64,000 nucleotides of DNA, from positions 5,408,501-5,472,500 of the forward strand of contig NZ_CP020028.1 in the NCBI RefSeq assembly GCF_002240415.1. The letters are read 5' to 3'. How positions within the stretch are numbered: the stretch's first letter is position 1; every line of letters begins with the position of its first letter. Under the pieces are notes generated by a model. The model saw only the letters and a list, made by a program, of their open reading frames with translations. It did no database searches and had not been told where the DNA came from. Origin of the DNA: Paenibacillus kribbensis. Its GTDB lineage: Bacteria; Bacillota; Bacilli; Paenibacillales; Paenibacillaceae. This document shows positions 8,329-22,674 of this stretch, piece by piece. The position numbers and the translations under genes are program-made.

Positions 8329-9359
8329 TAAGATCCCCCTCCCATGATCAGCCAAGTGATTAGCCTCAATGAAAAGAGAGTAATGCCGAAGATACCTGCA
8401 AACCAGGCCGTCACCTTGAACTTGCTAATCGGAGGCTTACCAACTACTTTACCCGTCTGGCCGTTCATCGCAAACGTATGCTCCAATTGGTTGTAATCAT
8501 AGTGTATGACCCATACCGGGAGCAGGACATAATCCGCTTGCTGTAATGTCGTATCAATTTGCTTTTCCGTGTAGTTCACGGACGTATACTCTGACACCGT
8601 AGATTGAATATAAGAATCAATATATTCCTTCACTTTGTCTTTCACTCGCGGGAAAAGCTCCTCTTCGTTATAGCTGTACTTCTCCGCAATATAGCCCGCC
8701 AGATATGGAGTTTTAAAGGGTTTTAGCTGATCGTAAGGAAACGGCTCCAATTTATCCATCAGCTCGTCATTCATTTTCTCCGCAGCATCAATCGGAACCT
8801 TCACATAATTCAGGCGGATTTTCCGATATACATCAAAATGCTGCGTTTCCTTATACTCGTAATCCCCGCTCGTATAGGTTCGTACTTTCATACCCTCGCC
8901 ATAAGCCTCAATTTTATTATGTAAATCATATAACCAGAAGGGCACATACATCCCGGTTATCCCCTTGATCCGATCTGCTGTCATGAACCGGTTTGGCGTC
9001 AGCCGACCATTCTTGCACCATTTTTTGAAAGCATCTATCGCTTCTTCCTTGCTGATCGAAAAAGGAATCACCTGCGCCGGAGCCAGTTCCCCGGTCAGTC
9101 GATCACCGAGAACCACGGCTGAACCGCAGAAGCTGCACACCGTTGCACTCGTCTCCATTTCAGTCATAATCACTGCTCCGCAGTTATTGCAATGATACTC
9201 CTGAACCTCATTTTCTGAAAAAATACGATTCATCAGAGGATCGGGAATGGATTCAATATTGTCCTCTCTCCCGCAACTATGACAGGATAACATCCCTGTC
9301 TCACCGTCAAAGACCATGCCACTACCGCAGTTGGGGCATTTGTATTCAATAACCGGCAT
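8328..9359 (-). CDS. ydjG: Double zinc-ribbon membrane protein, YdjG-like
   Basis: The protein has 343 residues with two N-terminal zinc ribbons: C8/C11 with C26/C29, and C57/C60 with C75/C78. A long mixed domain follows (binding motif unknown, containing AYGEGMKVRTYTSGDYEYKE), and one membrane segment near the C-terminus (about 315-338). The ATG is preceded by GAGGTGAG. It lies 27 bases after pspA and overlaps ydjH by one base. In B. subtilis YdjG is needed with YdjH and YdjI for PspA recruitment; its biochemical role is not established. Zinc ribbons at both ends of the operon suggest a metal-bound multi-protein assembly. Confidence 0.84.
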   Translation of the reverse strand: MPVIEYKCPNCGSGMVFDGETGMLSCHSCGREDNIESIPDPLMNRIFSENEVQEYHCNNCGAVIMTEMETSATVCSFCGSAVVLGDRLTGELAPAQVIPFSISKEEAIDAFKKWCKNGRLTPNRFMTADRIKGITGMYVPFWLYDLHNKIEAYGEGMKVRTYTSGDYEYKETQHFDVYRKIRLNYVKVPIDAAEKMNDELMDKLEPFPYDQLKPFKTPYLAGYIAEKYSYNEEELFPRVKDKVKEYIDSYIQSTVSEYTSVNYTEKQIDTTLQQADYVLLPVWVIHYDYNQLEHTFAMNGQTGKVVGKPPISKFKVTAWFAGIFGITLFSLRLITWLIMGGGS

Positions 9360-9386
9360 CTGCTCACCTCTATCCTGTAGAAACTG

Positions 9387-10046
9387 TTATGATTCCTTGT
9401 TGTTTATTTTCTTTTTGATTGCAGCCAGTTCATCTTCAGCGTTCGTACTCTTCTCATATTGCGCAAATAAGTCATCCAAATTGTCCTTCGATTCTGCCCG
9501 AAGCTCGGCTATCGCCATCGCTTCATCATACGCCCTGCTCACCTTCTCTTCCATCGCTTCGAAAACAGAATCCTGGCTGCTCATGGAGTTCAAGGCTTGC
9601 TGTACTTTGGCAACCACCATTTTCCCTTTAAGCTCGGCACGCCGCGCCTCCAGCTGCCCCATATCGAACAACAATTTATCCTGCATTTGTTTCATACCTG
9701 CGGCGTTTGCCGAAGCTAAGTCATAGGAGGCTTGCAATTGTTCCAGCTTCTGCGCCTGCAAAGCTTTTCTCTCCAGAAACTTTCGAGCTTCCTCTTCATT
9801 TCCAGCTTTCACGGACTTACTGGCATAATGCTGGAGCTTATTAATCTCGGCTCTGCATTCATCCCATGCTCTTTTCGCCCTTCCCTCATCGGCTAATACC
9901 GAGGTAGTTTCCGCTCTCACCTTGCCCAGATCACTGCTCAAATTCCGCATATAATCGTCAATGGCCTTCTCTGGATCTTCCACCTTATCCAATATGGCGT
10001 TGACATTCACCTTCATAATATCCCTAAACCTCGACAAAATTCCCAT
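9387..10046 (-). CDS. pspA: PspA/IM30 (ESCRT-III-like) phage-shock protein
   Basis: The 219 residues are almost entirely charged helix and coiled coil, as in PspA and Vipp1. The amphipathic membrane-binding helix is at the start (MGILSRFRDIMKVNVNAILD), followed by the conserved EDPEKAIDDYMR. The ATG at 10046 is chosen for its AAAGGGGG site and because all family members start at this helix; a longer reading adds 13 unlikely residues. PspA polymerises on damaged membranes. It is first in the operon with ydjG, ydjH and ydjI. A sequence resembling an extracytoplasmic-sigma promoter (TGAACA, 17 bases, TGTATG) lies upstream but is too weak to list. Confidence 0.92.
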   Translation of the reverse strand: MGILSRFRDIMKVNVNAILDKVEDPEKAIDDYMRNLSSDLGKVRAETTSVLADEGRAKRAWDECRAEINKLQHYASKSVKAGNEEEARKFLERKALQAQKLEQLQASYDLASANAAGMKQMQDKLLFDMGQLEARRAELKGKMVVAKVQQALNSMSSQDSVFEAMEEKVSRAYDEAMAIAELRAESKDNLDDLFAQYEKSTNAEDELAAIKKKINNKES

Positions 10047-10174
10047 GATGACCCCCTTCGAAAGGACTACATCCCACCATATCATACATCAAATCCGGTA
10101 AAATTTGTTCATCATAGCTAAATTCCAAAAGCTAATCCCATTTAGCCATCCATCCTCACTACGCAGAAATCAAA

Positions 10175-10229
10175 AAAAATGCCTGAGCCCTGTCGAAATC
10201 ATACGTTCAGACACGGGGTCAGGCACTTT
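10175..10229 (-). repeat. Orphan imperfect inverted repeat with terminator shape
   Basis: The minus strand reads GTGCCTGACCCCGTGTC, then about 20 bases, then GACAGGGCTCAGGCA and eight T. It has the form of a rho-independent terminator, but no gene ends here: pspA starts below it and a rightward gene lies above. It occupies the 369-base gap between pspA and the glycosyltransferase. It may be a dispersed palindromic repeat (REP-like) or the end of a small leftward RNA. Confidence 0.5.
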
Positions 10230-10415
10230 GCATCGCATGAACAAATCATGTAGTTCATTTTCTTGTGACGCTCGAAGGACACATCCGCAATAAGACCAAG
10301 CCTATTTCGAACCTTGGGAGGTGTTTGACCAGACCACGCTAAATCCATTGAGTATATTGTTATTATTCATGTTATCCAAGGGCTTTTATAATCAATGGTG
10401 GAGGGGGAGATCACA

Positions 10416-11567
10416 TTGGCTATCCGCTACAGCGTCATCATTCCAACCTATAATCGAGTCCAGCAGTTGCTGCTCACACTCGCCTCATTTGAAACACAAA
10501 CCTATCCAAAGCACCTATTCGAAGTGATTGTAGCTGATGACGGTTCTACAGACGGAACGAAAGAAATGGTCGAAGGCTTCAAAGCATCCTATCCTCTTAT
10601 CTATGTGTCCCATCCGGAACAACGCGGTCGGTCTGCCGTTCGAAATTTGGGACTGCGCCGTGCAAAAGGGCTATACATCATTTTCTGTGACGCTGACTTT
10701 TTGGTGTTGCCTGATTTCATTAGAATCGTGAGCCGTTATCACCGCAAATATCCCAAATCCGTGCTTTCAGGCATTCCTCACTCGTGGGACGATGCTTTTA
10801 CCCATTATCACCCAGACTTTTCTCCGGAAGAAAAAGAGCATTGTCGGAGGATACTTACACAATCAGGCCTATGGAATTCCGACTTTGAAGCAGCGAATGA
10901 AATCATTCCGATCATAACGACAGAGGATATCCTTCATCATACAGGTGCATTGTCAAAAGTAGTTAGTCCCACAAGAGTTCCCCCCAATATTAAAAAGCAA
11001 TTTGCCACTACAGATGTAGCTCCCTGGCTGCTCCTGATTACACGTTGTGTATCCATCAGGCGCAGCCAATTGATCCGTATTGACGGCTTTAATGAACGAT
11101 TTGTACTCTATGGACTCGAAGACTGGGACCTTGGCTACCGGCTGCATCGACTAAGGGTTCCTTTCTATTCCATCAAAGAAGTTGTCGGATATCATCAGGA
11201 ACACCCAACCTACCTTAGAGGGAACGTTTTAAATACGGAAAATCTGAAAATCATGTTTGAAACCTACGGATTCAATGATTCCTCCTTAAATCTGCTCGCC
11301 CTTGTCCCCCCATCCGCGGATTTGGAAGTCTACAAAAGTACACTGCGAGTATTACACAGGGGATTCCGTTCCAAGCTGACACGCTCATCAGCCCTGCTGT
11401 TAAGAAGGACGCTGCGTTTGGCAGCCAAGCAGTTCTTTTATCAAAAAAATAATCCAGCATACCAAAAATCATTGAACCTGATCAAAAGGAAAGCAGCGAA
11501 CCGAAAAAGCCGAGTCGCTCACGTGTTGCGAGAAATGCTGCTGAAGTCTGAAAAGCTGGTGGAATAA
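10416..11567 (+). CDS. Family 2 glycosyltransferase
   Basis: A 383-residue GT-A fold enzyme. The N-terminus YSVIIPTYNRVQQLLLTL is followed by VIVADDGSTDGTKE (nucleotide-sugar site), RSAVRNLGLRRAKG and the DXD-type FCDADF. An acceptor-side block, GFNERFVLYGLEDWDLGYRL, resembles the C-terminal part of bacterial polymerising galactosyl or chondroitin-type transferases. I choose the TTG at 10416 because GGAGGGGGAG lies just upstream; the ATG at 10395 has no site. No membrane segments are seen. It stands alone, with no polysaccharide cluster around it, so acceptor and product are unknown. Confidence 0.82.
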   Translation: MAIRYSVIIPTYNRVQQLLLTLASFETQTYPKHLFEVIVADDGSTDGTKEMVEGFKASYPLIYVSHPEQRGRSAVRNLGLRRAKGLYIIFCDADFLVLPDFIRIVSRYHRKYPKSVLSGIPHSWDDAFTHYHPDFSPEEKEHCRRILTQSGLWNSDFEAANEIIPIITTEDILHHTGALSKVVSPTRVPPNIKKQFATTDVAPWLLLITRCVSIRRSQLIRIDGFNERFVLYGLEDWDLGYRLHRLRVPFYSIKEVVGYHQEHPTYLRGNVLNTENLKIMFETYGFNDSSLNLLALVPPSADLEVYKSTLRVLHRGFRSKLTRSSALLLRRTLRLAAKQFFYQKNNPAYQKSLNLIKRKAANRKSRVAHVLREMLLKSEKLVE

Positions 11568-11669
11568 TAGCTACTCATTTACAGCGTACAAAATGGTGTG
11601 TATTAAATCTTCCTTACGGGGATGAAAAGCCTCCTCCATAAGGATGCGAGCCCAACTTGGCAAGCAGCT

Positions 11670-11711
11670 TTATGGAGGGGCAGTCGGGGCCCTGTCCGAG
11701 GATAACGACAA
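11670..11711 (-). repeat. Decayed copy of the ssrA 3' end (outer attachment-site remnant)
   Basis: Read on the plus strand, TATGGAGG, AGTCG and CCTGTCCGAGGATAACGACA occur in the order and near the spacing of the complement of the tmRNA 3' end at 22052-22098. The last 20 bases differ from the intact gene by one base; a few bases are lost or changed in the acceptor/T-arm part. It has the same orientation as ssrA. A short inverted copy of its tip (CCTCCATAA, 11633-11641) lies just to the left. I interpret it as the displaced outer att site of an island inserted at ssrA. Confidence 0.6.
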
Positions 11712-11792
11712 AAATGTCGCTATTAGTTTACTATTCCTCAGGAAACTCCAGCATGCTTTCTGATTATTCATTACATATGGATTTTACCAGCG

Positions 11793-12350
11793 CTAAGAAC
11801 TCAATACTTTAATGCTTTCATCGCACCAGCTGATTAAGCTGCTGAACTGACTTTTACCATAGCTCATTGTGATCATCCAATATTTGTGATTATGGTCTTT
11901 ATGCTCTACGTTGATAAGCCAACGTTCAAGTTCTTCAAAAATATGCAGGCTTTCCATTAGCTTTTCTTTATACTCCTGTATGTGCTTTATAATCGTTTCA
12001 GGCGAAGAATTGCCGCCAAAAAACACCCTCAATAACAGCTCATTTTTTTTGAGCATCACCACATGCTCCATGGGCTGAGAAAGCCAGTTGGACAACGTCT
12101 GCCTTCCCTGATCGGTAATGCTGTAGAGCTTCTTGTCAGGCTTCCCTTTTTGACGAATAACCTCGACCGTAATGTCCTTTCGATCCAGTAGCTCTGCCAG
12201 GCTGGGATAGATCTGGCCGTAGTTCTCATTCCAAAAGTAGCTAGTACTTTGTTCCATATGTTGTTTTATATCATAACCGGTATGAGGACCCAGACTCAGA
12301 ATTCCTAATACCGCAAACATTGTATTGGTTTTCCCTGACTGTCTCGCCAT
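11793..12350 (-). CDS. PadR-family transcriptional regulator
   Basis: The protein has 185 residues. The winged helix is at the N-terminus: FAVLGILSLGPHTGYDIKQHM, NYGQIYPSLAELLDRKDI and KKLYSITDQGRQTLSNWL. A helical C-terminal dimerisation domain of the Vir_act_alpha_C type contains a central W-rich patch. AGGAGG lies 11 bases before the ATG. It is divergent from the tautomerase-like gene across a 284-base AT-rich region with a good promoter. PadR proteins often repress detoxification genes and respond to phenolic or other small molecules, which fits the ring-cleaving and quinone-type genes next to it. Ligand unknown. Confidence 0.88.
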   Translation of the reverse strand: MARQSGKTNTMFAVLGILSLGPHTGYDIKQHMEQSTSYFWNENYGQIYPSLAELLDRKDITVEVIRQKGKPDKKLYSITDQGRQTLSNWLSQPMEHVVMLKKNELLLRVFFGGNSSPETIIKHIQEYKEKLMESLHIFEELERWLINVEHKDHNHKYWMITMSYGKSQFSSLISWCDESIKVLSS

Positions 12351-12454
12351 TATATATTATGCCTCCTAGTACCTCTAGCAAATCTCCGTAGTATGTCATG
12401 TTTTCATTAGACTAGACATAATTATAGCCCATTTGAAGCAGCTTCACACTCAAT

Positions 12455-12490
12455 CTATATATTATAAAAATATATATTATTATAATAATT
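12455..12490. promoter_or_regulatory. AT-only dyad region, possible PadR operator
   Basis: A run of nested dyads (CTATATATTATA ... TATATATTATTATAATAATT) lies between padR and the tautomerase-like gene, immediately upstream of the rightward -35 box. Its position suits a PadR operator, but the low complexity makes this weak. Confidence 0.3.
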
Positions 12491-12494
12491 AGTG

Positions 12495-12523
12495 TTGACA
12501 GGGGTTTTGCACCGTTTTATATT
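12495..12523 (+). promoter_or_regulatory. SigA-type promoter of the tautomerase-like gene
   Basis: TTGACA and TATATT are separated by exactly 17 bases, about 110 bases before the ATG at 12635. This is a near-consensus housekeeping promoter. Confidence 0.75.
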
Positions 12524-12634
12524 AACGATATCAACAAAATATCAATGGGCTTGCCAAGATGATGCCTTGGGTACATATATCATAAAGGTTTCAAGACATC
12601 CCTTGGTTAAACCTCAATAAGGAGATATCCGATC

Positions 12635-13108
12635 ATGACCATAATCAATGTAAATTATCCAGCAGGCCGCATAACGCTTGAACAGCGTCGACTTTTGGCA
12701 GAAGGCTTGACGGATGCAGTGCTCGTTCCAGAGGTAGGTCAATATTGTCCGCCAGCAAGAGAAGGGTTCCAGGTCCATTTCACCGAACGTCCAAGAGATT
12801 ACATGGCAATTGGCGGGCAATTGCTGTCGGATCAGCCTGAACGTGATGTAATCACCGTCAATGTTCTGGTGATGGATGGTGACTGGCCTAACGACGTCCG
12901 CAAAAAAGTGCTTGAGAATATTCTTGGCAGTTTGACAAAAGTACTTGGTTTACCGGAACCATCCCCGACTTGGTGGGTATCTTTCCAGGTCATTGAAGAA
13001 GGCAGTTGGGGTTCCCGCGGCGGTGTCCTCTCCATTCTGGACTTGCTGGATTCAGGGGTATTTACGGAGGAGAAAATTAAGGCTATCAAGCAAAACTTTA
13101 CACGATAA
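12635..13108 (+). CDS. Tautomerase-superfamily-like protein
   Basis: The protein has 157 residues. Two beta-alpha-beta units resemble the 4-oxalocrotonate tautomerase fold (MTIINVNYPAGRITLEQRRLLAEGL and then VITVNVLVMDGDWPNDVRKK). The catalytic Pro directly after the start Met in classical tautomerases is replaced by Thr (MTII), so the usual proline chemistry should be absent. AAGGAG lies 10 bases before the ATG. It is divergent from padR and ends at a terminator shared with the dioxygenase gene. It could be a divergent tautomerase, a non-enzymatic relative or an enzyme with another mechanism. Confidence 0.65.
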   Translation: MTIINVNYPAGRITLEQRRLLAEGLTDAVLVPEVGQYCPPAREGFQVHFTERPRDYMAIGGQLLSDQPERDVITVNVLVMDGDWPNDVRKKVLENILGSLTKVLGLPEPSPTWWVSFQVIEEGSWGSRGGVLSILDLLDSGVFTEEKIKAIKQNFTR

Positions 13109-13197
13109 CACAAGAGGCTCAGCACTTCTTAAAGGTGGGAGGAGCATTAATACAGTAACAACCTAATAACTTAAGCACAGTGTAATATGACCAAAGG

Positions 13198-13222
13198 AAA
13201 AAACACCCATAAGGGTGTTTTT
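13198..13222. terminator. Bidirectional terminator
   Basis: The stem AAAAACACCC/GGGTGTTTTT with a 4-base loop lies between the converging tautomerase-like and dioxygenase genes. Confidence 0.85.
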
Positions 13223-13236
13223 CATAAGAGTGCTCT

Positions 13237-14181
13237 TTATTTTCCTGTTAATGTTCTCACTTCAATAGGAAGCAAGTTCGCCTCGATTTGAGCCCGCTCT
13301 GGTTCATACCACTCTGGCAGCATTAATTTTTGCCCCAAAGCTTCAGCAGGTTCATCGTTGGCAAATCCCGGTGGATCTGTAGCAATTTCAAAGAGTATAC
13401 CGCCCGCTTCTCTGAAATATATAGCATTAAAATATTGGCGGTCTATGATTGGAGTCGTGTGATAGCCATAATTCTGGACTGTGTTTCTCCAGTCTTCATG
13501 TTGTTCGAAATCTTGTGCACGCCATGCAATGTGATGTACCGTGCCTGCTCCACCAATGCCTAAACCCATTTTGGCAAGCGGAACATCCACGATGTTGCCG
13601 ATTTCTCCTACGGACTGATAACGGGCATATTCGGCGTCTTCACCGATTTTCGTAAATCCGAGTATGCTTTCCAATACATCCATCGTTTTCTGTGGGTTGA
13701 CGCTAAATAGCACGGCACCTCCAAACCCCTTAATTGCTTTATCGGCCGAAATACCACCGTAAGACCAAGTACTGTTCGCTCCCGCTTCACGTTCGACAAG
13801 CTCAAGACGTAAGCCCTCATTATCCTCGAATTGAAGATATTGTTCAGAAAAACGGCTTGTTTTCGTAACTTGAATATCAAAGCTTTCCAAACGCTGCTGC
13901 CAAAAATCAAGTGAACCTGGCGGTACCACATACGAGGTAATGCCCACCTGGCCACCTCCGATTCGCCCTTTGGGGGTTCCTGGTGCAGGGAAAAAAGTAA
14001 TGATGGTTCCAGGGCTTCCTGCCTCGTTACCAAAGTATAAGTGGTAAACTTCAGGAGCATCGAAGTTGATTGTTTTCTTCAATAACCGAAGTCCAAGGAT
14101 GCCGGCATAGAAGTCGACATTTGCCTGCGGATTACCCGCAAAAGCTGTAATATGATGGATACCTGTAGTTTGAAGTGACAT
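13237..14181 (-). CDS. Ring-cleaving dioxygenase of the VOC superfamily, MhqO/MhqA-like
   Basis: The 314 residues contain two vicinal-oxygen-chelate modules. Metal ligands are visible as GIHHITAFAGNP (near residue 8), VHHIAWRAQD (about 210) and ILFEIATDPPGF (about 262). ATG at 14181 is chosen for its AGGAGGG site and the standard MSLQTTGIHHIT opening; the longer reading adds 22 residues without a site. The family includes hydroquinone dioxygenases such as MhqO of B. subtilis, which open the ring of quinone-type toxins. The gene follows a DoxX gene as in the B. subtilis mhqNOP operon, so quinone or diamide-type electrophile resistance is likely. Confidence 0.86.
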   Translation of the reverse strand: MSLQTTGIHHITAFAGNPQANVDFYAGILGLRLLKKTINFDAPEVYHLYFGNEAGSPGTIITFFPAPGTPKGRIGGGQVGITSYVVPPGSLDFWQQRLESFDIQVTKTSRFSEQYLQFEDNEGLRLELVEREAGANSTWSYGGISADKAIKGFGGAVLFSVNPQKTMDVLESILGFTKIGEDAEYARYQSVGEIGNIVDVPLAKMGLGIGGAGTVHHIAWRAQDFEQHEDWRNTVQNYGYHTTPIIDRQYFNAIYFREAGGILFEIATDPPGFANDEPAEALGQKLMLPEWYEPERAQIEANLLPIEVRTLTGK

Positions 14182-14254
14182 ATGAAACCCTCCTCTAATA
14201 GTAGAAACCTTTGTTTTTCGTGCTTGGTAATTTTTAATAGCCTGCATTCACGCT

Positions 14255-14653
14255 TTATTTAAGTATTGCATCGATGGAATATGAACCTGCTCCTGTCAAC
14301 GCAATACCGATTACGATGGCAATAAGAACTAGCGGATATTCATAGCCGTTAGCTGTTGACCAGATTCCATTTGGTCCATGTACTTTGACAATCGCTCCGA
14401 GCATAGTTACCGTAATTAAGAGTGCAGCCAGCGGAGTGAGCAGTCCTAAAGCAAATAGAGCTCCTCCCAGCAATTCCATCAGCCCAGCGGACACTGCCAT
14501 GAATACTCCGGGCTTAATTCCGATCGATTCCATCCAACCGCCGGTACCCTTTGGACCATAGCCGCCAAACCAGCCAAAAAGTTTCTGAGCTCCGTGCCCC
14601 ACCAATAACAATCCAACCACCAAACGTACCAGTAACAATCCACTTGCCAACAT
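14255..14653 (-). CDS. DoxX-family membrane protein, MhqP-like
   Basis: The protein has 132 residues with four membrane helices. The DoxX hallmark near the first helix is LLLVGHGAQKLFGWFGGYGP, with MELLGGALFALGLLTP following. The ATG with GGAGGATG upstream is preferred over a TTG five codons earlier. DoxX proteins accompany quinone- and thiol-oxidoreductive stress enzymes; MhqP in B. subtilis is co-transcribed with dioxygenase MhqO. The gap of 73 bases to the dioxygenase gene has no terminator, so the two are probably one transcript. Confidence 0.88.
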   Translation of the reverse strand: MLASGLLLVRLVVGLLLVGHGAQKLFGWFGGYGPKGTGGWMESIGIKPGVFMAVSAGLMELLGGALFALGLLTPLAALLITVTMLGAIVKVHGPNGIWSTANGYEYPLVLIAIVIGIALTGAGSYSIDAILK

Positions 14654-14719
14654 AAAATCATCCTCCAATTATACTTGTTTTAAGATTGCTTAATTAAAGA
14701 TATTAGGCAAAAATTAAAT

Positions 14720-14947
14720 TCATTCTTTAACTAATTGTGCCTGCTCTCTTCTTAGTTTTTGAGGAGTAACATCATCTCCATTTGGATCATAGATCGTAGC
14801 ATTCAAGAGAATGCTTTTTACAGAACCCCGAAAAATTTGAAGGTATTCTTTGCGAAGATCGGTTTGTTCAGTCTTTTCAATTTCAGTTAATCCGACTTCT
14901 TGTGCTTTTTTTGCAAGCTGATTAATTCTGTTTAAAATTGTAAGCAT
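14720..14947 (-). CDS. DUF896 (UPF0291) small helical protein, YnzC-like
   Basis: At 75 residues this is a two-helix hairpin protein with a disordered tail. The family pattern is clear: INQLAKKAQEVGLTEIEKTE, then LRKEYLQIFRGSVKSILLN and a tail with DPNGDDVTPQKL. GGAGG precedes the ATG. YnzC of B. subtilis belongs to this family and its function is not firmly known; some relatives sit in SOS-type operons. Here it is the first gene after the promoter and operator at 15000-15040 and would be co-transcribed with doxX and the dioxygenase, an arrangement I cannot explain. Confidence 0.9.
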   Translation of the reverse strand: MLTILNRINQLAKKAQEVGLTEIEKTEQTDLRKEYLQIFRGSVKSILLNATIYDPNGDDVTPQKLRREQAQLVKE

Positions 14948-14999
14948 GTGTATACCTCCATATTCAAAATGTTCTGATCAGTTATATCTTTAATTTATT

Positions 15000-15017
15000 T
15001 ATCTTGATATAAAGATA
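15000..15017. promoter_or_regulatory. MhqR/YodB-like operator palindrome
   Basis: The 18-base dyad TATCTTGATATAAAGATA has perfect 6-base arms. It resembles the TATCTCGAATTCGAGATA-type sites of MhqR in B. subtilis, and it covers the -10 box of the leftward promoter. A MarR-type quinone sensor encoded elsewhere is the likely user; the local PadR is the alternative. Confidence 0.5.
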
Positions 15018-15040
15018 TAATATTTTTCTATCCGTGTCAA
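15012..15040 (-). promoter_or_regulatory. SigA-type promoter of the DUF896-doxX-dioxygenase operon
   Basis: On the minus strand TTGACA and TATCTT are 17 bases apart, about 65 bases upstream of the DUF896 start. The -10 box lies inside the palindrome at 15000-15017, giving a simple repression geometry. Confidence 0.7.
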
Positions 15041-15131
15041 TACTTTTTCAAAAAAAAGATTAACCTTGGATTGCTTCACACACCAATATGAGAATCTTCA
15101 AACATTTCTGTTGGGAAAAGGTGTAATATTA

Positions 15132-15230
15132 TGAGTAACAACTCGCAAAAATGGGCAGAAGTTACAATCAATGGGACGTGCAGGAAGGCCAGAAGAAATC
15201 ACCAAGAATTTTTTTCTTACAAACTATTAA
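15132..15230 (+). pseudogene. Possible remnant of a short-chain dehydrogenase C-terminus
   Basis: In one frame the plus strand reads KLQSMGRAGRPEEITKN and then a stop. PMGRAGRPEEIA-type strings are characteristic of the C-terminal third of short-chain dehydrogenases. The rest of the gene is absent and this stretch overlaps the leader of the metallo-beta-lactamase gene. It may be chance; treat as a weak fossil. Confidence 0.3.
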
Positions 15231-15252
15231 CCGAAAGAAAGGGGCATACAAC

Positions 15253-16116
15253 ATGACAAGCCAGTTACAAACAAAAGTATTTATTAGTAGCGATCAACAT
15301 GATGGGTTCGGTGTAAGCTCGACTATTATATATGGTCCTACTGAAGCGTTACTCTTCGATGCTCAATTTAGCCGTTCCAACGCACTTCGTTTAGTGGCCG
15401 AAATACTCGAAACAGGTCGTGAACTAAAACAAATCTTTATCAGTCATTTTCACCCAGACCATTATCTAGGATTGGGTGTAATCAAGGAAGCATTTCCAAA
15501 CGCACGCGTAATGGCATACAAAGAAGTAGCTGAAGAAGCTAATGCGGCTTTCAGCTTCAAAATCGATTACTGGGGAACTGAGGTCCTGGGTAATAACGGC
15601 TCTAAAACCGTGGTAAATATTGAACGCATAGAAGAACCGCATCTCACAGTTGATGGTGAACAAATAGACATCCTGGGGTTAATGCGAGGCGACGCTGAGC
15701 ATGAAGCCATTTTGTGGATTCCATCCATTAAAACGCTAGTCGCTGGTGATTTGGTTTTCTCCGATGCACATGTTTGGGTAGCTGATGCTCGATTCCCAGA
15801 GGATCGACAGGCATGGCTTGATAATCTCGACACATTAGAAGCATTGAAACCAGAAGTCATCATCCCTGGGCATGCTCCAAATGACAGACCTTACAATCCA
15901 AATGGTATCAAATTTACACGATGTTATTTGAAAGATTTTATGCATCATCTCACAGAATCAACAGATTCTGCCAACCTAATAGCTAGAATGGAACAACTTT
16001 ATCCAGACCTGGTAGTGCATATTTGTTTAGAATTGAGTGCCAAAATTTTAAAAGATAAATACCGTTGGGAAGGCGACTGGCCTCATTCACTTCGCGACAC
16101 GGATGCTGTAATCTGA
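15253..16116 (+). CDS. Metallo-beta-lactamase-fold hydrolase
   Basis: The 287 residues have the metal motif SHFHPDHYLG (H65, H67, D69, H70) and later VAGDLVF with the bridging Asp. IIPGHAPND supplies the last histidine. There is no signal peptide, so it is cytoplasmic. The ATG at 15253 has AAAGGGG 8 bases upstream; an upstream ATG at 15151 would add 34 residues unlike the family. This group hydrolyses thioesters, lactones or other esters. Its place beside a ring-cleaving dioxygenase and VOC protein suggests detoxification, but the substrate is unknown. No terminator follows, and the next gene is 263 bases on. Confidence 0.83.
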   Translation: MTSQLQTKVFISSDQHDGFGVSSTIIYGPTEALLFDAQFSRSNALRLVAEILETGRELKQIFISHFHPDHYLGLGVIKEAFPNARVMAYKEVAEEANAAFSFKIDYWGTEVLGNNGSKTVVNIERIEEPHLTVDGEQIDILGLMRGDAEHEAILWIPSIKTLVAGDLVFSDAHVWVADARFPEDRQAWLDNLDTLEALKPEVIIPGHAPNDRPYNPNGIKFTRCYLKDFMHHLTESTDSANLIARMEQLYPDLVVHICLELSAKILKDKYRWEGDWPHSLRDTDAVI

Positions 16117-16379
16117 AACATCGAGTAAAAAGCAGAGATGCTGGTTTTCGTACTCTTTCTTCTATTGAGGCCCATATTTAAAAAAGGGGAAGGCAAAGGC
16201 GATTCGTATATCCAATATCTCAGCCAAACCGAGGCATGGAGTCCTGTACATCTGGGAAAGGTGAGTTCATGGCTCTTATTAGTACAAACTACAAAAAAAT
16301 CAGTTAAATTTTATATATTTAGCGAAATAGGGAAGTATAATATTAGAAAAATGCAGGATGTCAAAACTAGGAGGAAATC

Positions 16380-16775
16380 ATGGGCCGACTCGTTCATTTC
16401 GAAATTCATGTAGATGACATGGAACGTGCCAAGAAGTTTTATGGCGAGGTATTTGGATGGACATTTGAGGATTGGAGTGACTATGCTGGAACGCCTTATT
16501 TTGGAGCTGTGACAGGCGATGCAAATGAACCCGGAATCAACGGGGCTTTGATGCAGCGTCAAGGTGCTTCCCCCCAACCTAGTCAGGCTATGAATGGTTA
16601 TGCATGCACTATGGGAGTGGAAGATTACGATTCTACTGAAACAAAAATTCTTAATCTTGGAGGCAAACTTGCACTGCCAAAGCATGCACTGCCTGGAATG
16701 GCGTGGCAAGGGTATTACATGGACACAGAAGGAAATATTTTTGGTATTCATCAGCCAGATGAGCATGCAAAATAG
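16380..16775 (+). CDS. VOC-family (glyoxalase/bleomycin resistance-like) protein
   Basis: A 131-residue single VOC protein. The opening VHFEIHVDDMERAKKFYGEV and the C-terminal MDTEGNIFGIHQPD give the metal-ligand His and Glu positions of this family. TAGGAGGA lies 6 bases before the ATG. It is followed directly by a strong hairpin. Proteins of this kind include lactoylglutathione-lyase-like and drug-binding members; here it is grouped with other electrophile-related genes inside the ssrA-flanked segment. Exact substrate unknown. Confidence 0.85.
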   Translation: MGRLVHFEIHVDDMERAKKFYGEVFGWTFEDWSDYAGTPYFGAVTGDANEPGINGALMQRQGASPQPSQAMNGYACTMGVEDYDSTETKILNLGGKLALPKHALPGMAWQGYYMDTEGNIFGIHQPDEHAK

Positions 16776-16786
16776 AGTTATACAAC

Positions 16787-16816
16787 AATAGCCCGACCTC
16801 ACACGGTCGGGCTATT
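16787..16816 (+). terminator. Hairpin after the VOC gene
   Basis: A perfect 12-base stem (AATAGCCCGACC/GGTCGGGCTATT) with a 6-base loop begins 11 bases past the stop. A T run is poor, so it may act as a terminator or as an mRNA-stabilising structure. Confidence 0.65.
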
Positions 16817-16976
16817 ATACGTTCGTTCAAGTAGCGATAGAGCGTCTGTCGGTAAACAATACAGCTACGGAAAAGGACCTGAGCATTCATCAGAGTTAGA
16901 GCAAGTTAAGGCACAAAATTAATCATAAACATGTGCAAATCAATTCGGTGTTTTGGTCCCTATCTCATCAGATAAT

Positions 16977-19127
16977 CTATTTCAATTCCATGTAATAAAG
17001 ATTTGTAGGACTATCTTTTGTAATGGTATGTGCGCCAGGAGCAAGTGATACGCTGACAATACCATCAGTTATTGGATAACTGGTTCCATCAACCTTGATT
17101 TTTGTTCCGTCTGCTGAACTAAACACCAATGTTAATGTTGAAGCTTCCGTAGTGGTAAACCCAATACTGGTTGAGCTCTCGATTTTTAAGCATTGAGTTA
17201 GAGTCAAACCATTATACTCTACAGTTCCCTTGTTTGCCGAAAGATTCCCTTTAATATCAAATAAGTAACTATTAGTTCCAGATATAGTAAAGTTATGAAC
17301 CCGTTCTCCAGGTGTTGGTACCGGAACAGGAGTCGGTGTCGGTTCTGGGGTTGGTTCTGGAGTTGGCCCCGGTGTCGGTTCCGGAATAGGCGTTGGTGTT
17401 GGTTCCGGAGTTGGTTCTGAAATAGGAGTCGGCGTTGGCTCCGTTGGGATTGAATCCCCCCCTACAGACACAAGTTGAGTTGTGTAGCTTCTTATTTTAG
17501 CCATTAGAGCTGAATTGAGTGCATACGACGTGTCATCAACGGAATTATCAAATTCCCATGTAAAGTCTCCGTTATTTAGGCGTCCAGCTTTTGCAGTAAC
17601 AATTTGTTCAACATCGCTTACATTATCAATGTCAGCACCATTTACTCCAGTATCAACGCTTGTATCAAAGTTGTTATACGCTGTCCCTCCTTTTAATGCT
17701 TTGTATGAGCTTGGTACGGTCTCATTTCTCGACGAAGCTAAGTACGCATCAAATGAGCTTTTATTTGCCGGAGCTGTCCCGTTATTGGAGTTTGCATAAA
17801 TCAGACTGGCAGCATCAACTATACTATTGTTGTAGGCCTTAATCACACCTCCGTTTTCGCCCGAAAATGTACCTTCCCCTAAAGCATCCGTACCTTGCAA
17901 AGAGCTCAGCATTGGATATTTAGCATGTCTAAAATAATTAGATTCTACAAAGGCTGAAGCTCCCATTGTAGCACCGACACCATATTTTGAAACTCCATCA
18001 AAGAAGTTATTATATATATGAACAGATGCCACTCTTATACGTGGATGACGGGAGTCTGAATGATCAAACCAGTTATGGTGGAAGGTGACAAAGAATTCTG
18101 ACGATTCACTTAAGCCGACCAAAGCTGATTTTCCTGAATCCCAGTAGTGATTATAAGAGATTGTAATATACGTCGATCCATTTTTAACGTCTGTGGAACC
18201 ATCTCCCTTTGCTTGGTCAGCATCTCCTCCTGCAGATCCATAGAATATATCATTATTATGCACCCAAACATTCGCATTTCCTGTATCCATTGAAATACCG
18301 TCATCAGGGAACAACATCAGACCCAGATTTCTCACTTCCACATTTCCGACATATCTAAGAAGTATTCCCCATCCGTAAGCATAAGCATCGTCTCCGATAC
18401 CTTCAACCGTCATATTCATTTCCGAATAATTTTTTTTGCCTTTTACTTGAAGATATCCACTGCTATTCAGTTGTCCTTTCATGTCATCTTCTGTAACTTT
18501 CCCAATAAATCTGATTGCAAGTGGTGTTGTATCATAGCCTTTTTGTCTTAATGCCAAAATCTCGCCCAGACCAACACCTTTTTGAACACGACCTGAGCTA
18601 TTGATTTTCACATCGAGGGTCAATGTTTGTGCAGTCTTGGATGTTACATAAAGAACCTGGGCACCATTCTTAAGTGTTCCGTCTTCATTATAAGCACCCG
18701 AGCCCGTGCCATATTGCGATTTTGATGAGAAAGCAAATCCGGATCTATCATATGACGCTACGGATAGCTTTTTTGAAACAGCACTTACCGTTGATCCGCC
18801 TGGCAGCCTGGCTTCAACCTTCATTACATAATCTCCAGCTGCAAGACCTACGGCATCAGCTCTCCAATAGGAAGGGTATTTTCGGATTAATTCACTATCA
18901 ATTTGTTGATAGTAAGAATCTGACGCGTTTACAGGTTTAACATATACATTATATCCCTCCGCATTGCTTTCAGGTGACCATTCTACATACGCAGTTTCAT
19001 TCCAGCCTCCACCGTCGATGATCGAAAGACCAGCAGCATAAATTTTAGTACCTTGCAATCCTATTAAAGATATTACAAGAGAAAACAATAAAACAATACT
19101 CATTACATTTGTAATCCTCTTTTTCAT
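16977..19127 (-). CDS. Secreted pectate lyase, polysaccharide lyase family 1 type, with Pro/Thr linker and C-terminal domain
   Basis: The protein has 716 residues. A signal peptide (MKKR then a hydrophobic core, about 1-30) is followed by a fibronectin-like stretch (AYVEWSPESNAEGYNVYVKP) and the right-handed beta-helix lyase domain (about 120-530). Within it, NVWVHNNDIF, YITISYNHYWDSGKSALVG, TFHHNWFDHSDSRHPRIR and VHIYNNFFDG carry the calcium-binding and catalytic Arg regions. A PTPEPTPTP linker (about 545-600) joins a C-terminal beta domain that may bind carbohydrate. ATG at 19127 has GGGAGG upstream. It degrades polygalacturonate of plant cell walls by beta-elimination. It lies in the older ssrA-flanked segment. 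Confidence 0.9.
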   Translation of the reverse strand: MKKRITNVMSIVLLFSLVISLIGLQGTKIYAAGLSIIDGGGWNETAYVEWSPESNAEGYNVYVKPVNASDSYYQQIDSELIRKYPSYWRADAVGLAAGDYVMKVEARLPGGSTVSAVSKKLSVASYDRSGFAFSSKSQYGTGSGAYNEDGTLKNGAQVLYVTSKTAQTLTLDVKINSSGRVQKGVGLGEILALRQKGYDTTPLAIRFIGKVTEDDMKGQLNSSGYLQVKGKKNYSEMNMTVEGIGDDAYAYGWGILLRYVGNVEVRNLGLMLFPDDGISMDTGNANVWVHNNDIFYGSAGGDADQAKGDGSTDVKNGSTYITISYNHYWDSGKSALVGLSESSEFFVTFHHNWFDHSDSRHPRIRVASVHIYNNFFDGVSKYGVGATMGASAFVESNYFRHAKYPMLSSLQGTDALGEGTFSGENGGVIKAYNNSIVDAASLIYANSNNGTAPANKSSFDAYLASSRNETVPSSYKALKGGTAYNNFDTSVDTGVNGADIDNVSDVEQIVTAKAGRLNNGDFTWEFDNSVDDTSYALNSALMAKIRSYTTQLVSVGGDSIPTEPTPTPISEPTPEPTPTPIPEPTPGPTPEPTPEPTPTPVPVPTPGERVHNFTISGTNSYLFDIKGNLSANKGTVEYNGLTLTQCLKIESSTSIGFTTTEASTLTLVFSSADGTKIKVDGTSYPITDGIVSVSLAPGAHTITKDSPTNLYYMELK
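17300..17450 (-). repeat. Tandem repeats coding the Pro-Thr-Glu linker of the pectate lyase
   Basis: Short units of 6 to 12 bases on the GGTGTTGGTTCCGGA theme repeat many times and encode PTPEPTPTP-type segments. Such tracts can change length by slippage. Confidence 0.8.
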
Positions 19128-19524
19128 TTCCAATCCTCCCAAATTTGATTTGTTGCATACACCATTGAACCGTTATCAAAATACCGACAAGTTTCTCGAT
19201 CCACCTCCCCTCGTGTAATCATATTAATGAAACACATCCAAACTTTATAATGAGAAAAAAGTCACAATACATGAGTCAAACTAATGCGACTTACATTCAA
19301 ACTACAGCGTCTATCCATAATCTTCAAGGGGGAGAAATTAGTATTATATAAGACTCTTTCCCATAATTTCGAACTAATTCGTCATCATTCGTCAATATCC
19401 CCCTCCTTTCAACGTCCTAAATTGCGGTGTATATTAGGAGATATTTCCTGGTTCATTTTTGCTAGAAATTAATTGGATGAATATCCCTACGGGTAGAAAT
19501 TTGACACTAACCAGTGCATTTTTC
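19128..19524. other. Non-coding stretch upstream of the pectate lyase
   Basis: I see no gene here. It holds the leader and presumably the promoter of the pectate lyase gene (none clear enough to call) and the left flank of the IS3 remnant, including TTGACACTAACC just before its start. Confidence 0.5.
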
Positions 19525-19915
19525 ATGGCGATAAAAGGTCAAAAGCTTAAGACGTGTGCAGAGGAGCTAAAGATGGAGGCGATCCGCCCGCACGTTAAGG
19601 AAAACTGGACGTACCGACAGATTACGCTCACTTGGGAATACAAGATAAGGTTCGGATGGAGCGTTGAATGTGTAAATCGCGAGAATGGGTGAATTGGGCC
19701 TGCTGGATCAGCGGGGAAGACGAGCCCAATATGCGAATCAGAACCGCTACGTTTAACAGCTCCGGCGGGAAAACGAACTGCTAAAAAAGTGTTTGGGAAT
19801 CTGGAGGCAGGAGGGAAAGTCAGCCGAACCAAATATGCCGAAGACTTCACGGTAGACATGGTCAATCACAAATACGTATTTGAGGAATTGGCCGAAATAA
19901 TTAAGAAGTATTGTG
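19525..19915 (+). pseudogene. Degenerate IS3-family transposase OrfA with start of OrfB
   Basis: Three frames must be joined to read the protein. Frame 1 gives MAIKGQKLKTCAEELKMEAI and ENWTYRQIT. A shifted frame gives HLGIQDKVRMER. A third gives MGELGLLDQRGRRAQYANQ, then NRYV, a stop, and QLRRENELLKKCLGIWRQEG. This is the helix-turn-helix and leucine-zipper OrfA common in Paenibacillus IS3 elements. From about 19858, MVNHKYVFEELAE resembles the first residues of OrfB; the rest is missing. At least two frameshifts and two stops make it inactive. It lies just left of an ssrA 3'-end copy. Confidence 0.75.
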
Positions 19916-19941
19916 TGGTAATTAAATCATACGGAGATGCA

Positions 19942-19969
19942 AAAAAGCGACCGAGGCAGGTCGCTTTTT
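19942..19969. terminator. Terminator next to the displaced ssrA 3' end
   Basis: The stem AAAAAGCGACC/GGTCGCTTTTT with a 6-base loop is followed by T runs on both strands. It sits 12 bases beyond the displaced ssrA end in the direction of ssrA transcription, so it may be the former ssrA terminator moved together with that end. Confidence 0.75.
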
Positions 19970-19980
19970 CTAGTGGTATA

Positions 19981-20066
19981 AATGGAGGAAAGGGGAGTCG
20001 AACCCTGCCCAAAAATATCGCCACACAGGCTTCTACGGGTGTAGTCACGGTTTTGATGTCACCCTA
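19981..20066 (-). repeat. Displaced ssrA 3' end (inner attachment-site copy)
   Basis: About 85 bases align to the intact tmRNA 3' end at 22053-22138 in the same orientation: ATGGAGG, AGGGGAGTCGAACCC, and GCTTCTACGGGTGTAGTCAC followed by GTTTTGATGTCACCC. By eye about 85% of positions match, with one single-base gap. Differences cluster in the paired stem region and look like those between tmRNAs of different species more than random decay. The 5' part of a tmRNA is absent. It marks the left end of the 2.07-kb segment carrying the GIY-YIG/DUF2075 gene. Confidence 0.8.
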
Positions 20067-20304
20067 GCAAGGGTTCGTTGTATAGCTCGTTTACTTGCCT
20101 TAACCTACTACTAATCTTTTCGGCTGGGGATGATCGTCCGAGCCAACTATTGGAGGCACCGAGAACTGCACTTGGATACAGCTAGTATAATCACTCCCTT
20201 TATATGGATAACTGCCAGCATTCACTTTGACAACAACACAATATTTTGCAAAGATAATTTTACAAGAACCGTGAACCCCAAATTAACCCCCAGTAGGAGG
20301 AATT
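20067..20304. other. Leader region of the GIY-YIG/DUF2075 gene
   Basis: No gene is seen. The left part may continue the donor-type ssrA pseudoknot region (the minus strand contains a GGCTCGG ... CCCAGCC hairpin near 20120-20145). The right part is AT-rich and must carry the promoter of the rightward gene; no box pair is clear. Confidence 0.45.
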
Positions 20305-21927
20305 ATGTTTAAGATAGAAACCTATGATTATACCAATAAAAACTTTGATGAATGGGACATCCCTTTTGACTATCACTGCGTCTACATATTAGAAAATGGT
20401 AAAGAGGCCTACATTGGTGAAACCAACAACTCCATCAGAAGAGCGAAGGAACACGCTAGCAACTCCCAAAAAAATAAGAATAAAAAATACCTTTTTAACA
20501 AAATGCATATAATTACTGGATCACCAATGGAGGAAACACCAGCCAAGCATTATGAAAACCTGCTAATAAAACTAATGAAGGTTGATAAAAAGTTTCATAT
20601 TGTAAATGGAAGTGACGGCCAAAAGCCGCATTACCAAAGAAAGAATGATTTTGAACGGCATTTTGATAAGCTATGGTTCCAGCTTGAAGAAAAAGGGCTG
20701 GTAAAAACGAAAGAATTTAATACGATCATTAACTCAAATGCATATAAGTACTCTCCTCATACTACCCTAACCGAAGAACAACACAAGACCTTAACAAGTA
20801 TTGTTCACACCATTGATTCAGGTGAGACTCTACCACATGAACCGACTTTCAATACAAGGCCAATTCTCATAAGAGGTGATGCGGGAACCGGGAAAACTGT
20901 TGTAGCCACTTCACTGTTCCATTATTTAAAAAGCAATGAGCGTTATAGAGATAAAAAAATCGCATTGGTGTATGCAAATCCCTGCACTCGCAGCGAAATT
21001 CAAGAAGTTTTTAAGAATACGGAGGGGTTGAGCAAAAAAGACGTTATCAGCCCAGTGGAAGTCACCAAACAACACTACGACATTATTATTTGCGATGAAG
21101 CCCAACGACTGAGAAGAGGTAAAAATCTCGGAATGTATTACGTACATTTTAAAACAGGGAATGTCCGACTCGGATTCGATAAAACACACGATGAATTGGA
21201 TTGGATTATGGCTAATTCCAACTGCCAGATTCTATTCTATGACGGAAAACAAAGTACAAGTCCTTCCGACATAACACGCGAACAATTTGAAGAAAGACTG
21301 TATGAAAGAAAGCGGGGGATTCGTCCTATAGAGCTAGATGAACAGATGCGAATAAAAGCTGGCGATAGCTATGTCCCTTACATCTACGATGTGCTTTATC
21401 AAAAAACTACTAACAATCTTGCATTTGAAAACTATGATTTTAAACTTTTCACCTCGTTTTCCGATATGGTGAACGCCCTTGATGTAAAGGAAAAAGACAT
21501 GGGGCTATGCAGGCTTTGTACAGGATATGCTTGGGAATGGAAAGGTAAAGAAGACAACAAATTAGTAGATATCTGTATTGACGGTGTTAACATTAAATGG
21601 AACAGTCAGACAGGCGGTTGGTTAAGCAATTTAAATGCTAAAAAAGAGATGGGTAGTATTTATACATTGCCTGGACTTGATTTAAACTATGCCGGAGTTA
21701 TTATTGGTCCAGATCTCGTTTTTGATAAATTGGACAATATGATAAAAATAAATAAGGATAATTTTTTCGACAACAAAGTAAAGAATGGAATAACTGTTGA
21801 AGAACTGAAAGCTTACATTCTTAATACATATGCGGTTTTTCTAACTCGTGGTATCAGAGGAACATACATCTATGTTTGTGACGATAACCTAAGAGAGTAT
21901 TTTGAGAGGTATATTCCTTATTACTAA
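20305..21927 (+). CDS. GIY-YIG nuclease domain fused to DUF2075 P-loop ATPase/helicase
   Basis: The protein has 540 residues. A GIY-YIG endonuclease-like domain occupies about 20-110: V26-Y27-I28, Y36-I37-G38, R45/R46, E49 and a candidate metal-binding Glu at 84. A DUF2075 superfamily 1-like motor follows: Walker A GDAGTGKT (191-198), Walker B DIIICDEAQ (259-267) and the C-terminal LTRGIRGTYIYVCD (513-526). AGGAGG precedes the ATG. The coding sequence is clearly richer in A and T than the housekeeping genes around it. It is the only gene between two ssrA 3' ends. A nuclease joined to a motor in a mobile context suggests phage or plasmid defence, but this is inference. Confidence 0.85.
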   Translation: MFKIETYDYTNKNFDEWDIPFDYHCVYILENGKEAYIGETNNSIRRAKEHASNSQKNKNKKYLFNKMHIITGSPMEETPAKHYENLLIKLMKVDKKFHIVNGSDGQKPHYQRKNDFERHFDKLWFQLEEKGLVKTKEFNTIINSNAYKYSPHTTLTEEQHKTLTSIVHTIDSGETLPHEPTFNTRPILIRGDAGTGKTVVATSLFHYLKSNERYRDKKIALVYANPCTRSEIQEVFKNTEGLSKKDVISPVEVTKQHYDIIICDEAQRLRRGKNLGMYYVHFKTGNVRLGFDKTHDELDWIMANSNCQILFYDGKQSTSPSDITREQFEERLYERKRGIRPIELDEQMRIKAGDSYVPYIYDVLYQKTTNNLAFENYDFKLFTSFSDMVNALDVKEKDMGLCRLCTGYAWEWKGKEDNKLVDICIDGVNIKWNSQTGGWLSNLNAKKEMGSIYTLPGLDLNYAGVIIGPDLVFDKLDNMIKINKDNFFDNKVKNGITVEELKAYILNTYAVFLTRGIRGTYIYVCDDNLREYFERYIPYY

Positions 21928-22001
21928 CTACATAAAGTTGCACTCCGGTTGACTTTACCACCGATGCTTATTCTACGAGTCAACCCGCTGCGTCTCCGTA
22001 G

Positions 22002-22043
22002 ACAGCAAAACCCGCTAACCATCAGGTCAGCGGGTTTTGCTGT
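22002..22043. terminator. Bidirectional terminator between the DUF2075 gene and ssrA
   Basis: A 19-base stem (ACAGCAAAACCCGCTAACC/GGTCAGCGGGTTTTGCTGT, one mismatch) with a 4-base loop lies between the converging DUF2075 gene and ssrA. Confidence 0.85.
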
Positions 22044-22053
22044 AATTTCCATA

Positions 22054-22415
22054 TGGAGGCGAGGGGAGTCGAACCCCTGTCCGAAGATAACGACACATAA
22101 GCTTCTACGGGTGTAGTCACAGTTTTGATGTCACCCGAGTACCGCCCCGTAACCGGCTGTACGTTGGGTCAGCCTGATTGTCTTCTTCAGCACACCCCAG
22201 GCGGAGATGTGACAGCGTATCCCACTATAGGTTAGCCCCTACATCCGGCACATGGGCGATGCAGGAGAGGAGCACGCTCACAGGTTATTAAGCTGCGAAA
22301 GCGTAGTTGTTTTGTTGTTTGCCGTTTAATAGGCTTTAGCGTTGATGAAGCGGACGCGTCCCCACTACCCGCTACCCATGCTCGAACTATCCCCGTCGAA
22401 TCCATAAACGCCCCC
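22054..22415 (-). ncRNA. ssrA: tmRNA
   Basis: The 5' end GGGGGCGTTTATGGATTCGA and the 3' end GGGGTTCGACTCCCC then CGCCTCCA form the alanyl tRNA-like domain, with a 7-base acceptor stem and a GGGGATAG D-loop-like region. The resume codon and tag reading frame at 22288-22323 encode GKQQNNYAFAA and a TAA stop, giving AGKQQNNYAFAA with the first alanine. Pseudoknot segments fill the rest. About 362 bases is normal. CCA is not encoded, so it must be added after processing. It rescues stalled ribosomes with SmpB, whose gene lies 260 bases upstream; RNase R, also nearby, degrades the faulty mRNAs. Confidence 0.96.
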
Positions 22416-22674
22416 TCATTAAAAAAGGGCTCCACGGATTAATCCGGAAATACCGGAGCATAAGCATGCATAATATCGGAAGCTGAATCCTGAGATTCAA
22501 CAGTCGAACCAAGTTGAACACAAAATACATTTGAAAACTTACTACTTCGTTAGTATACCATATTACATGTCATAACGAAACGGAATGAAGCCATTTCAGC
22601 TCGATAAAATAGCACCATTACAGGAACAAGTAGCTTATCCACGTAATTTGTACCATACATGATAATGCAGCAAC

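Follow-up and report, generated by a model that had tools for sequence, protein, structure and literature searches.

Behind ssrA, the gene of transfer-messenger RNA (tmRNA), Paenibacillus kribbensis carries two displaced copies of the gene's 3′ end within a 64,000-nucleotide stretch of its genome (contig NZ_CP020028.1, positions 5,408,501 to 5,472,500; the window, below). The data showed that these displaced scars are real, that they make the order of arrival of the DNA between them readable, and that they are unlike the footprints of the usual integrase enzymes. The best explanation of the whole, on which our confidence is evenly divided, is that cassettes stacked behind ssrA displaced its former ends and were exchanged by homologous recombination through the ssrA tail. 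Displaced ssrA fragments are usually taken for integrase footprints, and the site preserves, in readable form, the arrivals of genes next to an important RNA gene, among which toxin–antitoxin and nuclease passengers recur. For comparison, 121 ssrA loci of the Paenibacillaceae were compiled, the window included, and 115 remained after 6 duplicates were dropped. A 2003 article by Williams is reportedly entitled 'Traffic at the tmRNA gene'. A search by title and start of abstract, with most subscription journals outside its coverage, found no paper on ssrA arrays in Paenibacillus among those listed, and the accessible parts of PMC11915505, PMC12884075 and PMC6070908 contain nothing on the ssrA site in this genus.

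A sequence-only reading of the window had proposed three ssrA 3′ ends in a single orientation, and this was borne out by ARAGORN, alignments and shuffled controls; ssrA, the inner copy and the outer copy all point the same way (Table 1). The inner copy corresponds to the last 86 nt of ssrA (tmRNA profile E 1e-20), with 86% likeness in an ungapped core (20003–20067 versus 22075–22139). The outer copy, which that reading had ranked as the weaker of the two, has a 33-nt core (11678–11710) that is 85% alike. Taken alone it is indeed weak, and it might be a chance or convergent similarity, which would leave one displaced end only. It is short, it is absent from the matches of the tmRNA profile at E ≤ 1e-2, and blastn gave only E 0.001 in a small database, all of which weighs against its being a scar. 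On the other hand, when the last 90 nt of ssrA were aligned to window positions 8001–19900, its Smith–Waterman score was 45, as expected of a copy better than chance; none of 200 Markov shuffles exceeded 29, and the opposite strand scored 20. Furthermore, the outer copy has syntenic orthologues beside the same flank, one of at least 65 nt in P. farraposensis (L031; starting at nt 288, E 3e-6) and one in strain BJ-4 (L033 = L128; E 4e-4), while P. brasilensis (L032) retains only a degenerate trace there. Their better preservation largely refutes a coincidence, which we regard as very improbable. Between the three copies no integrase was detected by Pfam on ten window open reading frames or by tyrosine- and serine-recombinase profiles, in agreement with the earlier statement that none remains, and the serine-recombinase profile found no large serine recombinase abutting ssrA in the window.

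The history of the inner insert (20067–22052) can be read from a relative. In P. farraposensis, ssrA runs straight into the sequence found left of 19982 in the window, with 90% likeness over 2.6 kb. In the first 250 nt of this stretch 199 of 247 aligned bases are identical (81%), compared with 120–141 of 196–229 (56–65%) in ten other relatives. Because this species shows the insert-free junction, 20067–22052 is regarded as an insertion beside ssrA, and the copy at 19982 as the end that was pushed away. The proposed later entry of this segment, and the empty site sought in relatives, are thereby supported. The terminator-like hairpin behind ssrA came with the insert, while that behind the inner copy is of the type that follows ssrA in P. 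farraposensis and P. brasilensis. The only long gene of the insert, encoding a protein with GIY-YIG and Schlafen group 3 helicase domains, is absent from P. farraposensis, and among the 115 loci and 18 further stretches it matched the window only. Homing by the GIY-YIG protein was rejected as a general cause, as the gene occurs in no other compared ssrA locus. Genomes with relatives of the protein numbered 15 of 75 in the genus, counting that of the window, and viral contigs yielded none. The protein is partly similar to two models in a defence-system library, AbiO/Nhi and PDC-S14, and its gene is a candidate defence gene.

Displacement was also compared at 11 other loci. In three of them (L130, L116, L129) the 45 nt that follow the displaced fragment showed 2 mismatches to the sequence downstream of ssrA in the best-fitting close relative; for the 45 nt that follow the locus's own ssrA the numbers were 16, 24 and 25, respectively. 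Three loci (L099, L113, L077) were ambiguous. Against displacement stand four that were uninformative or misfitting (L132, L072, L104, L107), together with the observation that the 85 nt of the window's inner copy are equally far from all compared ssrA tails, that of P. farraposensis included (74–75 of 85). In L054, nt 251–286 of ssrA are L040-like, and the fragment resembles L055 and L061; in the upstream flank (up to 9 kb) L061 is nearest (87.6%), with L055 third (86.0%) and L040 fourth (85.0%). An attempt to pin the crossover with L054 gave only bounds, nt 67 to 251.

The older segment, from 11.7 to 20 kb, had been read as a single insertion (11712–19980), the first of two stacked integrations. 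This proved too simple, and by gene content the segment is a composite, because its gene units differ in presence and place among L031, L032, L112, L128 and L129. The tautomerase–PadR unit is patchy, being found in the window, L032 and L128 and missing from L031, L112 and L129. The block of DUF896, DoxX and glyoxalase genes lies right behind ssrA in BJ-4, separated from it only by a serine-recombinase remnant. BJ-4 also has an additional ssrA fragment between its glyoxalase and tautomerase genes, which is not present at the matching place of the window (about 13.23 kb). Since L031 and L128 both have the outer copy, next to the glycosyltransferase flank, it is the older one. A remnant at 19.46–19.87 kb that resembled an IS3-type transposase fragment was not confirmed as one by Pfam, whose sole match was a poor one to RdgC (E 0.045). 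Phage records gave no megablast match to window positions 11000–22500. In two further loci, L193 (G006) and L195 (G034), some 440 kb separate ssrA from the glycosyltransferase gene and the ssrA fragment near it. This distance is suggestive of a large rearrangement that had one of its breakpoints close to the array.

Table 1. Features of the ssrA array in the window, and sites of folded elements and hairpin junctions in other loci.
Feature	Position	Strand	Basis
Intact ssrA (tmRNA), tag GKQQNNYAFAA	22054..22415	-	ARAGORN
Terminator-like hairpin directly behind ssrA, came with inner insert	22004..22042	-	Read from sequence; unlike relatives' ssrA terminators
GIY-YIG + Schlafen group 3 helicase protein, 540 aa, sole long gene of inner insert	20305..21927	+	Pfam
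Inner displaced copy of ssrA 3′ end, about nt 277-362	19982..20066	-	
Terminator-like hairpin behind inner copy	19942..19970	-	Read from sequence; type shared with the ssrA terminators of P. farraposensis, P. brasilensis
Pectate lyase + CBM77, older segment	16977..19142	-	Pfam; behind ssrA in L031
Glyoxalase-like protein, 131 aa, recurring behind ssrA in several other species	16380..16775	+	Pfam
Metallo-beta-lactamase-fold protein, older segment	15253..16116	+	Pfam; L031
DUF896 protein, first gene of block directly behind ssrA in L128	14720..14947	-	Pfam
DoxX family protein, DUF896 block	14255..14668	-	Pfam
Glyoxalase/dioxygenase-like protein, end of DUF896 block	13237..14184	-	Pfam
Tautomerase, unit with PadR	12635..13108	+	Pfam
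PadR-type regulator, unit with tautomerase	11793..12350	-	Pfam
Outer, decayed copy of ssrA 3′ end, about nt 321-362	11671..11711	-	Shuffle score; orthologues in L031, L128
Glycosyltransferase, flank beyond array	10395..11567	+	Pfam; same place in L031, L032, L112, L128, L129
Folded-element loci	L149:913-1532; L068:11232-11581; L142:18412-18987		
Hairpin junction sites (distance from ssrA end)	L066 6066; L080 2802; L085 3214; L091 3352; L093 4185 and 6987; L103 4812		

The arrangement found in the window is widespread in the family. The tmRNA profile detected 81 downstream fragments in 55 of the 115 loci, a lower bound since some loci had little downstream sequence, and 79 of them are in ssrA orientation. 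Counted by eye, 70 of the 81 extend to nt 345 or further. In the 57 loci with both sides available there were 38 matches in 533 kb downstream, none in 614 kb upstream and none in shuffled downstream sequence. The intervals between ssrA and a fragment (n = 77) had a median of 1431 nt, with 26 below 1 kb, 31 of 1–3 kb and 20 longer. The same genes recur in varying order across species, including Fic/Doc with a MazE-type antitoxin, a zeta-toxin-like gene, a PDDEXK_2 nuclease and a YdjO-like gene, and the 131-aa glyoxalase of the window is likewise among them. In several recurring cassettes the stop codon of the last gene lies no more than about 30 nt from the fragment. Terminator modules behind ssrA are also exchanged. 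Matches to recombinase profiles were found in 5 of the 55 fragment-bearing loci (tyrosine in L094 and L147; serine in L067, L120 and L128), with home-made profiles that remote families may escape. Matches to the ssrA tail were scarce in plasmids (1 record) and phages (4 records). In the Moorella phage MCACPph1 (L217), positions 72–197 resemble tmRNA nt 237–362 (71.7%) and are overlapped by an integrase gene, an overlap similar to that in Paenibacillus ssrA prophages.

The scars left by recombinases at this gene could be measured in prophages and islands, whose far ends were located by searching for sequences that follow ssrA in relatives. All six viral contigs with an ssrA tail (behind L211–L216) encode a large serine recombinase, which abuts the ssrA sequence in five and lies at the opposite contig end in G100. 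When one of these recombinases was compared with 295 family genomes, the best matches (40% likeness or more) came from 11; ssrA lay within the fetched flank of the recombinase in 7 of the 11, and an eighth, G067, has broken pieces 1.2 kb from ssrA. The recombinases form two groups that are about 24–34% alike. The island cargo includes portal and major head proteins in G274 and a terminase in G105. The G007 prophage measures 38.06 kb, with the 10-nt repeat TCGCCTCCAT, and its exact empty site is present in L139 and L035 (97.5% over 8 kb with L035). The other serine-recombinase scars were 13–14 nt (G095, G105, G274) and about 18–19 nt (G100). These junctions put the point of integration of the serine-recombinase prophages and islands at the very 3′ terminus of ssrA. 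The corresponding loci are L138, L292 and L293 (G007), L295–L297 (G095), L286–L288 (G274) and L289–L291 (G105). In a close relative (G014), the far end of a 43-kb island with a tyrosine integrase is formed by about 30 nt of ssrA. More short-scar junction types recur with similar arms; one recurring junction consists of a short hairpin followed by about 8–10 nt of the ssrA end (Table 1). That the cassettes are right-end cargo of serine-integrase prophages was rejected, as in G100 and G274 the prophage ends before the cassettes and not behind them.

The window copies match none of the measured integrase scars, as the inner one has 86 nt and the scars about 10–30 nt. The short fixed repeat typical of serine-recombinase islands (20 bp in Dehalococcoides, about 10–19 nt here) was not found in the window. 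The tyrosine-recombinase insertion proposed in the sequence-only reading was not supported either, given the lack of an integrase, a scar longer than that of G014 and no clearly conserved arm. Instead, both window copies fall by their sequence into a family-wide class of small cassettes bounded by long ssrA fragments (40–300 nt) with varied starts. Within the family, recombinase-bearing islands at ssrA itself leave short scars, so the numerous longer fragments call for another, testable explanation.

The long-repeat fragments start at about nt 40–320, and their breakpoints vary even where the fragment is nearly identical to the host's own ssrA; the idea that one fixed crossover defines where they start was rejected, since recent fragments begin at many positions. 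The 30 nt before 22 long-repeat junctions (hand-chosen, one per gene content, nt 255–284) were 0.367 alike, compared with 0.349 (0.334–0.361) in 200 random sets, while three short-scar types had an arm similarity of 0.57–0.66. In the explanation preferred here, foreign DNA with its own ssrA 3′ end and terminator would enter directly behind ssrA, and the entry would rebuild the gene and push its original 3′ end away as a copy. Displacement is supported by the relatives for the inner copy, and we infer it for the outer one. The outer copy is old, and the one-gene cassette with the GIY-YIG/Schlafen-type helicase came later. Strains would most likely exchange the cassettes through RecA-type homologous recombination, in which ssrA and the fragment serve as two homology arms. 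Such exchange is favored because the flanking arms are near background and recombinases are few among the fragment-bearing loci. Several points speak against it. Homology of about 90 nt is short for such recombination. The arm similarity of 0.367 exceeds, by a small margin, that of each of the 200 random sets, and similar arms had served to group the short-scar types, which makes the comparison partly circular and only suggestive. Moreover, about a dozen seemingly independent fragments, judged by eye, start at nt 264–269, which points to a specific cut.

This clustering leads to the main alternative, in which a recombinase cuts ssrA near nt 265–275 and its gene is then lost, so that the cassettes are leftovers or were moved in trans. 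Tyrosine integrases do lie directly behind ssrA in L147 and L098. In L147 there is also a weak fragment, at 18.1 kb, that begins at about nt 265 (E 6e-3). Integrase-free islands that keep their attachment sites are known at ssrA from the accessible part of PMC3146451. However, a specific cut does not account for the starts at about nt 40–240 and 277–320, and there is no clearly conserved flanking arm. Where the recombinase was identified and the far end found (G007, G095, G105, G274, G014), the scars were about 10–30 nt. A recombinase or its remnant was found in only 5 of the 55 fragment-bearing loci, and in one of these, L067, the sole ssrA fragment is inverted. Such a cut is a real possibility, though one we consider less than probable.

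Fragments could also arise if ssrA and a gene were duplicated in tandem within the genome and one copy decayed, so that nothing new entered. In L076 one 308-aa gene is present in two copies, each followed by an ssrA fragment, and many fragments are close to the ssrA of their own host (99% in L104). Yet the genes between the copies differ among relatives and recur in distant species, and P. farraposensis shows the state without the inner insert. The compared relatives also suggest that the GIY-YIG gene was absent behind ssrA in the P. polymyxa/brasilensis ancestor. Hence, an internal duplication appears unlikely. Homologous exchange through the ssrA tail could be extended to a more general, tentative and rather doubtful proposal, in which the ssrA 3′ end of Paenibacillaceae is an accretion platform for recombinase-free cassettes of one or two genes, and an 80–300-nt piece of the tmRNA gene, placed distally in the cassette, is a portable homology arm. 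If so, a competent strain would take up a cassette behind its own ssrA with the essential RNA left intact, the travelling cassettes would be toxin–antitoxin pairs, nucleases and metabolic genes, and the GIY-YIG/helicase insert of the window would be one of them.

The follow-up of the ssrA site also exposed a folded repeat element for which no Rfam family was found. Some short-scar units consist of this non-coding element of about 160 nt, which ends in the 3′ end of the target gene, is often in tandem with about 200-nt spacing, and lies directly behind tmRNA or tRNA-Ala(GGC) genes. A covariance model built from eight units found it in 70 of 197 family genomes (E ≤ 0.001) and in neither the window nor its genome. 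Among 30 fetched loci, 16 were beside tmRNA, 10 beside tRNA-Ala(GGC) and 4 had neither within about 1.5 kb. In an alignment of 64 copies (58 distinct), 92.2% of cells pair, compared with 40–61% when slid, and in an 11-bp helix 7 pairs changed on both sides; this alignment was fitted to the model, which favors pairing, and an unfitted eight-sequence alignment gave 5 such pairs. One unit had a better fold than its shuffled versions (z of −2.2). The units of L068 had no match in Rfam. In L149 tmRNA alone exceeded the curated score; weaker matches, such as mir-4484 (E 1.3e-4, below the cut-off), lie over the ssrA end and the first terminator. Similar units also end gene-bearing stretches in L065 (rel. 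3789) and L142 (rel. 5160). The element may be a mobile RNA element, or it may serve as a structured site for recombination.

The ssrA array shares features with several known systems. Integron cassettes are single-gene units in varying order, often with toxin–antitoxin genes, and the array resembles them in these respects and, in several cases, in a stop codon near the repeat. It differs from integrons in that no integron integrase was found and the long-repeat class has no attC-like conserved arm; a conserved site flanking each cassette was not seen, as the arms of the 22 junctions were near background. As in elements of the cis-mobilizable (CIME) type, the window insert is flanked by copies of the target end and has no recombinase of its own. 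In the tyrosine-integrase islands of tRNA and tmRNA genes (Islander), as described in the accessible part of PMC4383910, the target is restored and the displaced fragment lies at the far end, as here, while the window has no integrase, its fragment exceeds the about 30 nt of G014, and fragment starts vary within the class. In Clostridioides difficile and Clostridium perfringens, islands in ssrA share the target gene and the ssrA-end repeats and, in the part of PMC10061031 available, bear a serine recombinase, which the window cassettes lack. The Dehalococcoides ssrA islands, described in the accessible part of PMC3146451, carry DsiB, a CcrB-like serine recombinase, and insert in tandem at nt 333/334 with 20-bp repeats. 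The DsiB gene overlaps the ssrA end on the opposite strand, like the prophage recombinases in the relatives studied here. These islands resemble the window in their tandem arrangement behind ssrA, in 3′-end copies as bounds and in the many units without an integrase; they differ from it in the 20-bp repeat, compared with copies of 86 nt and at least 41 nt in the window, which has no recombinase.

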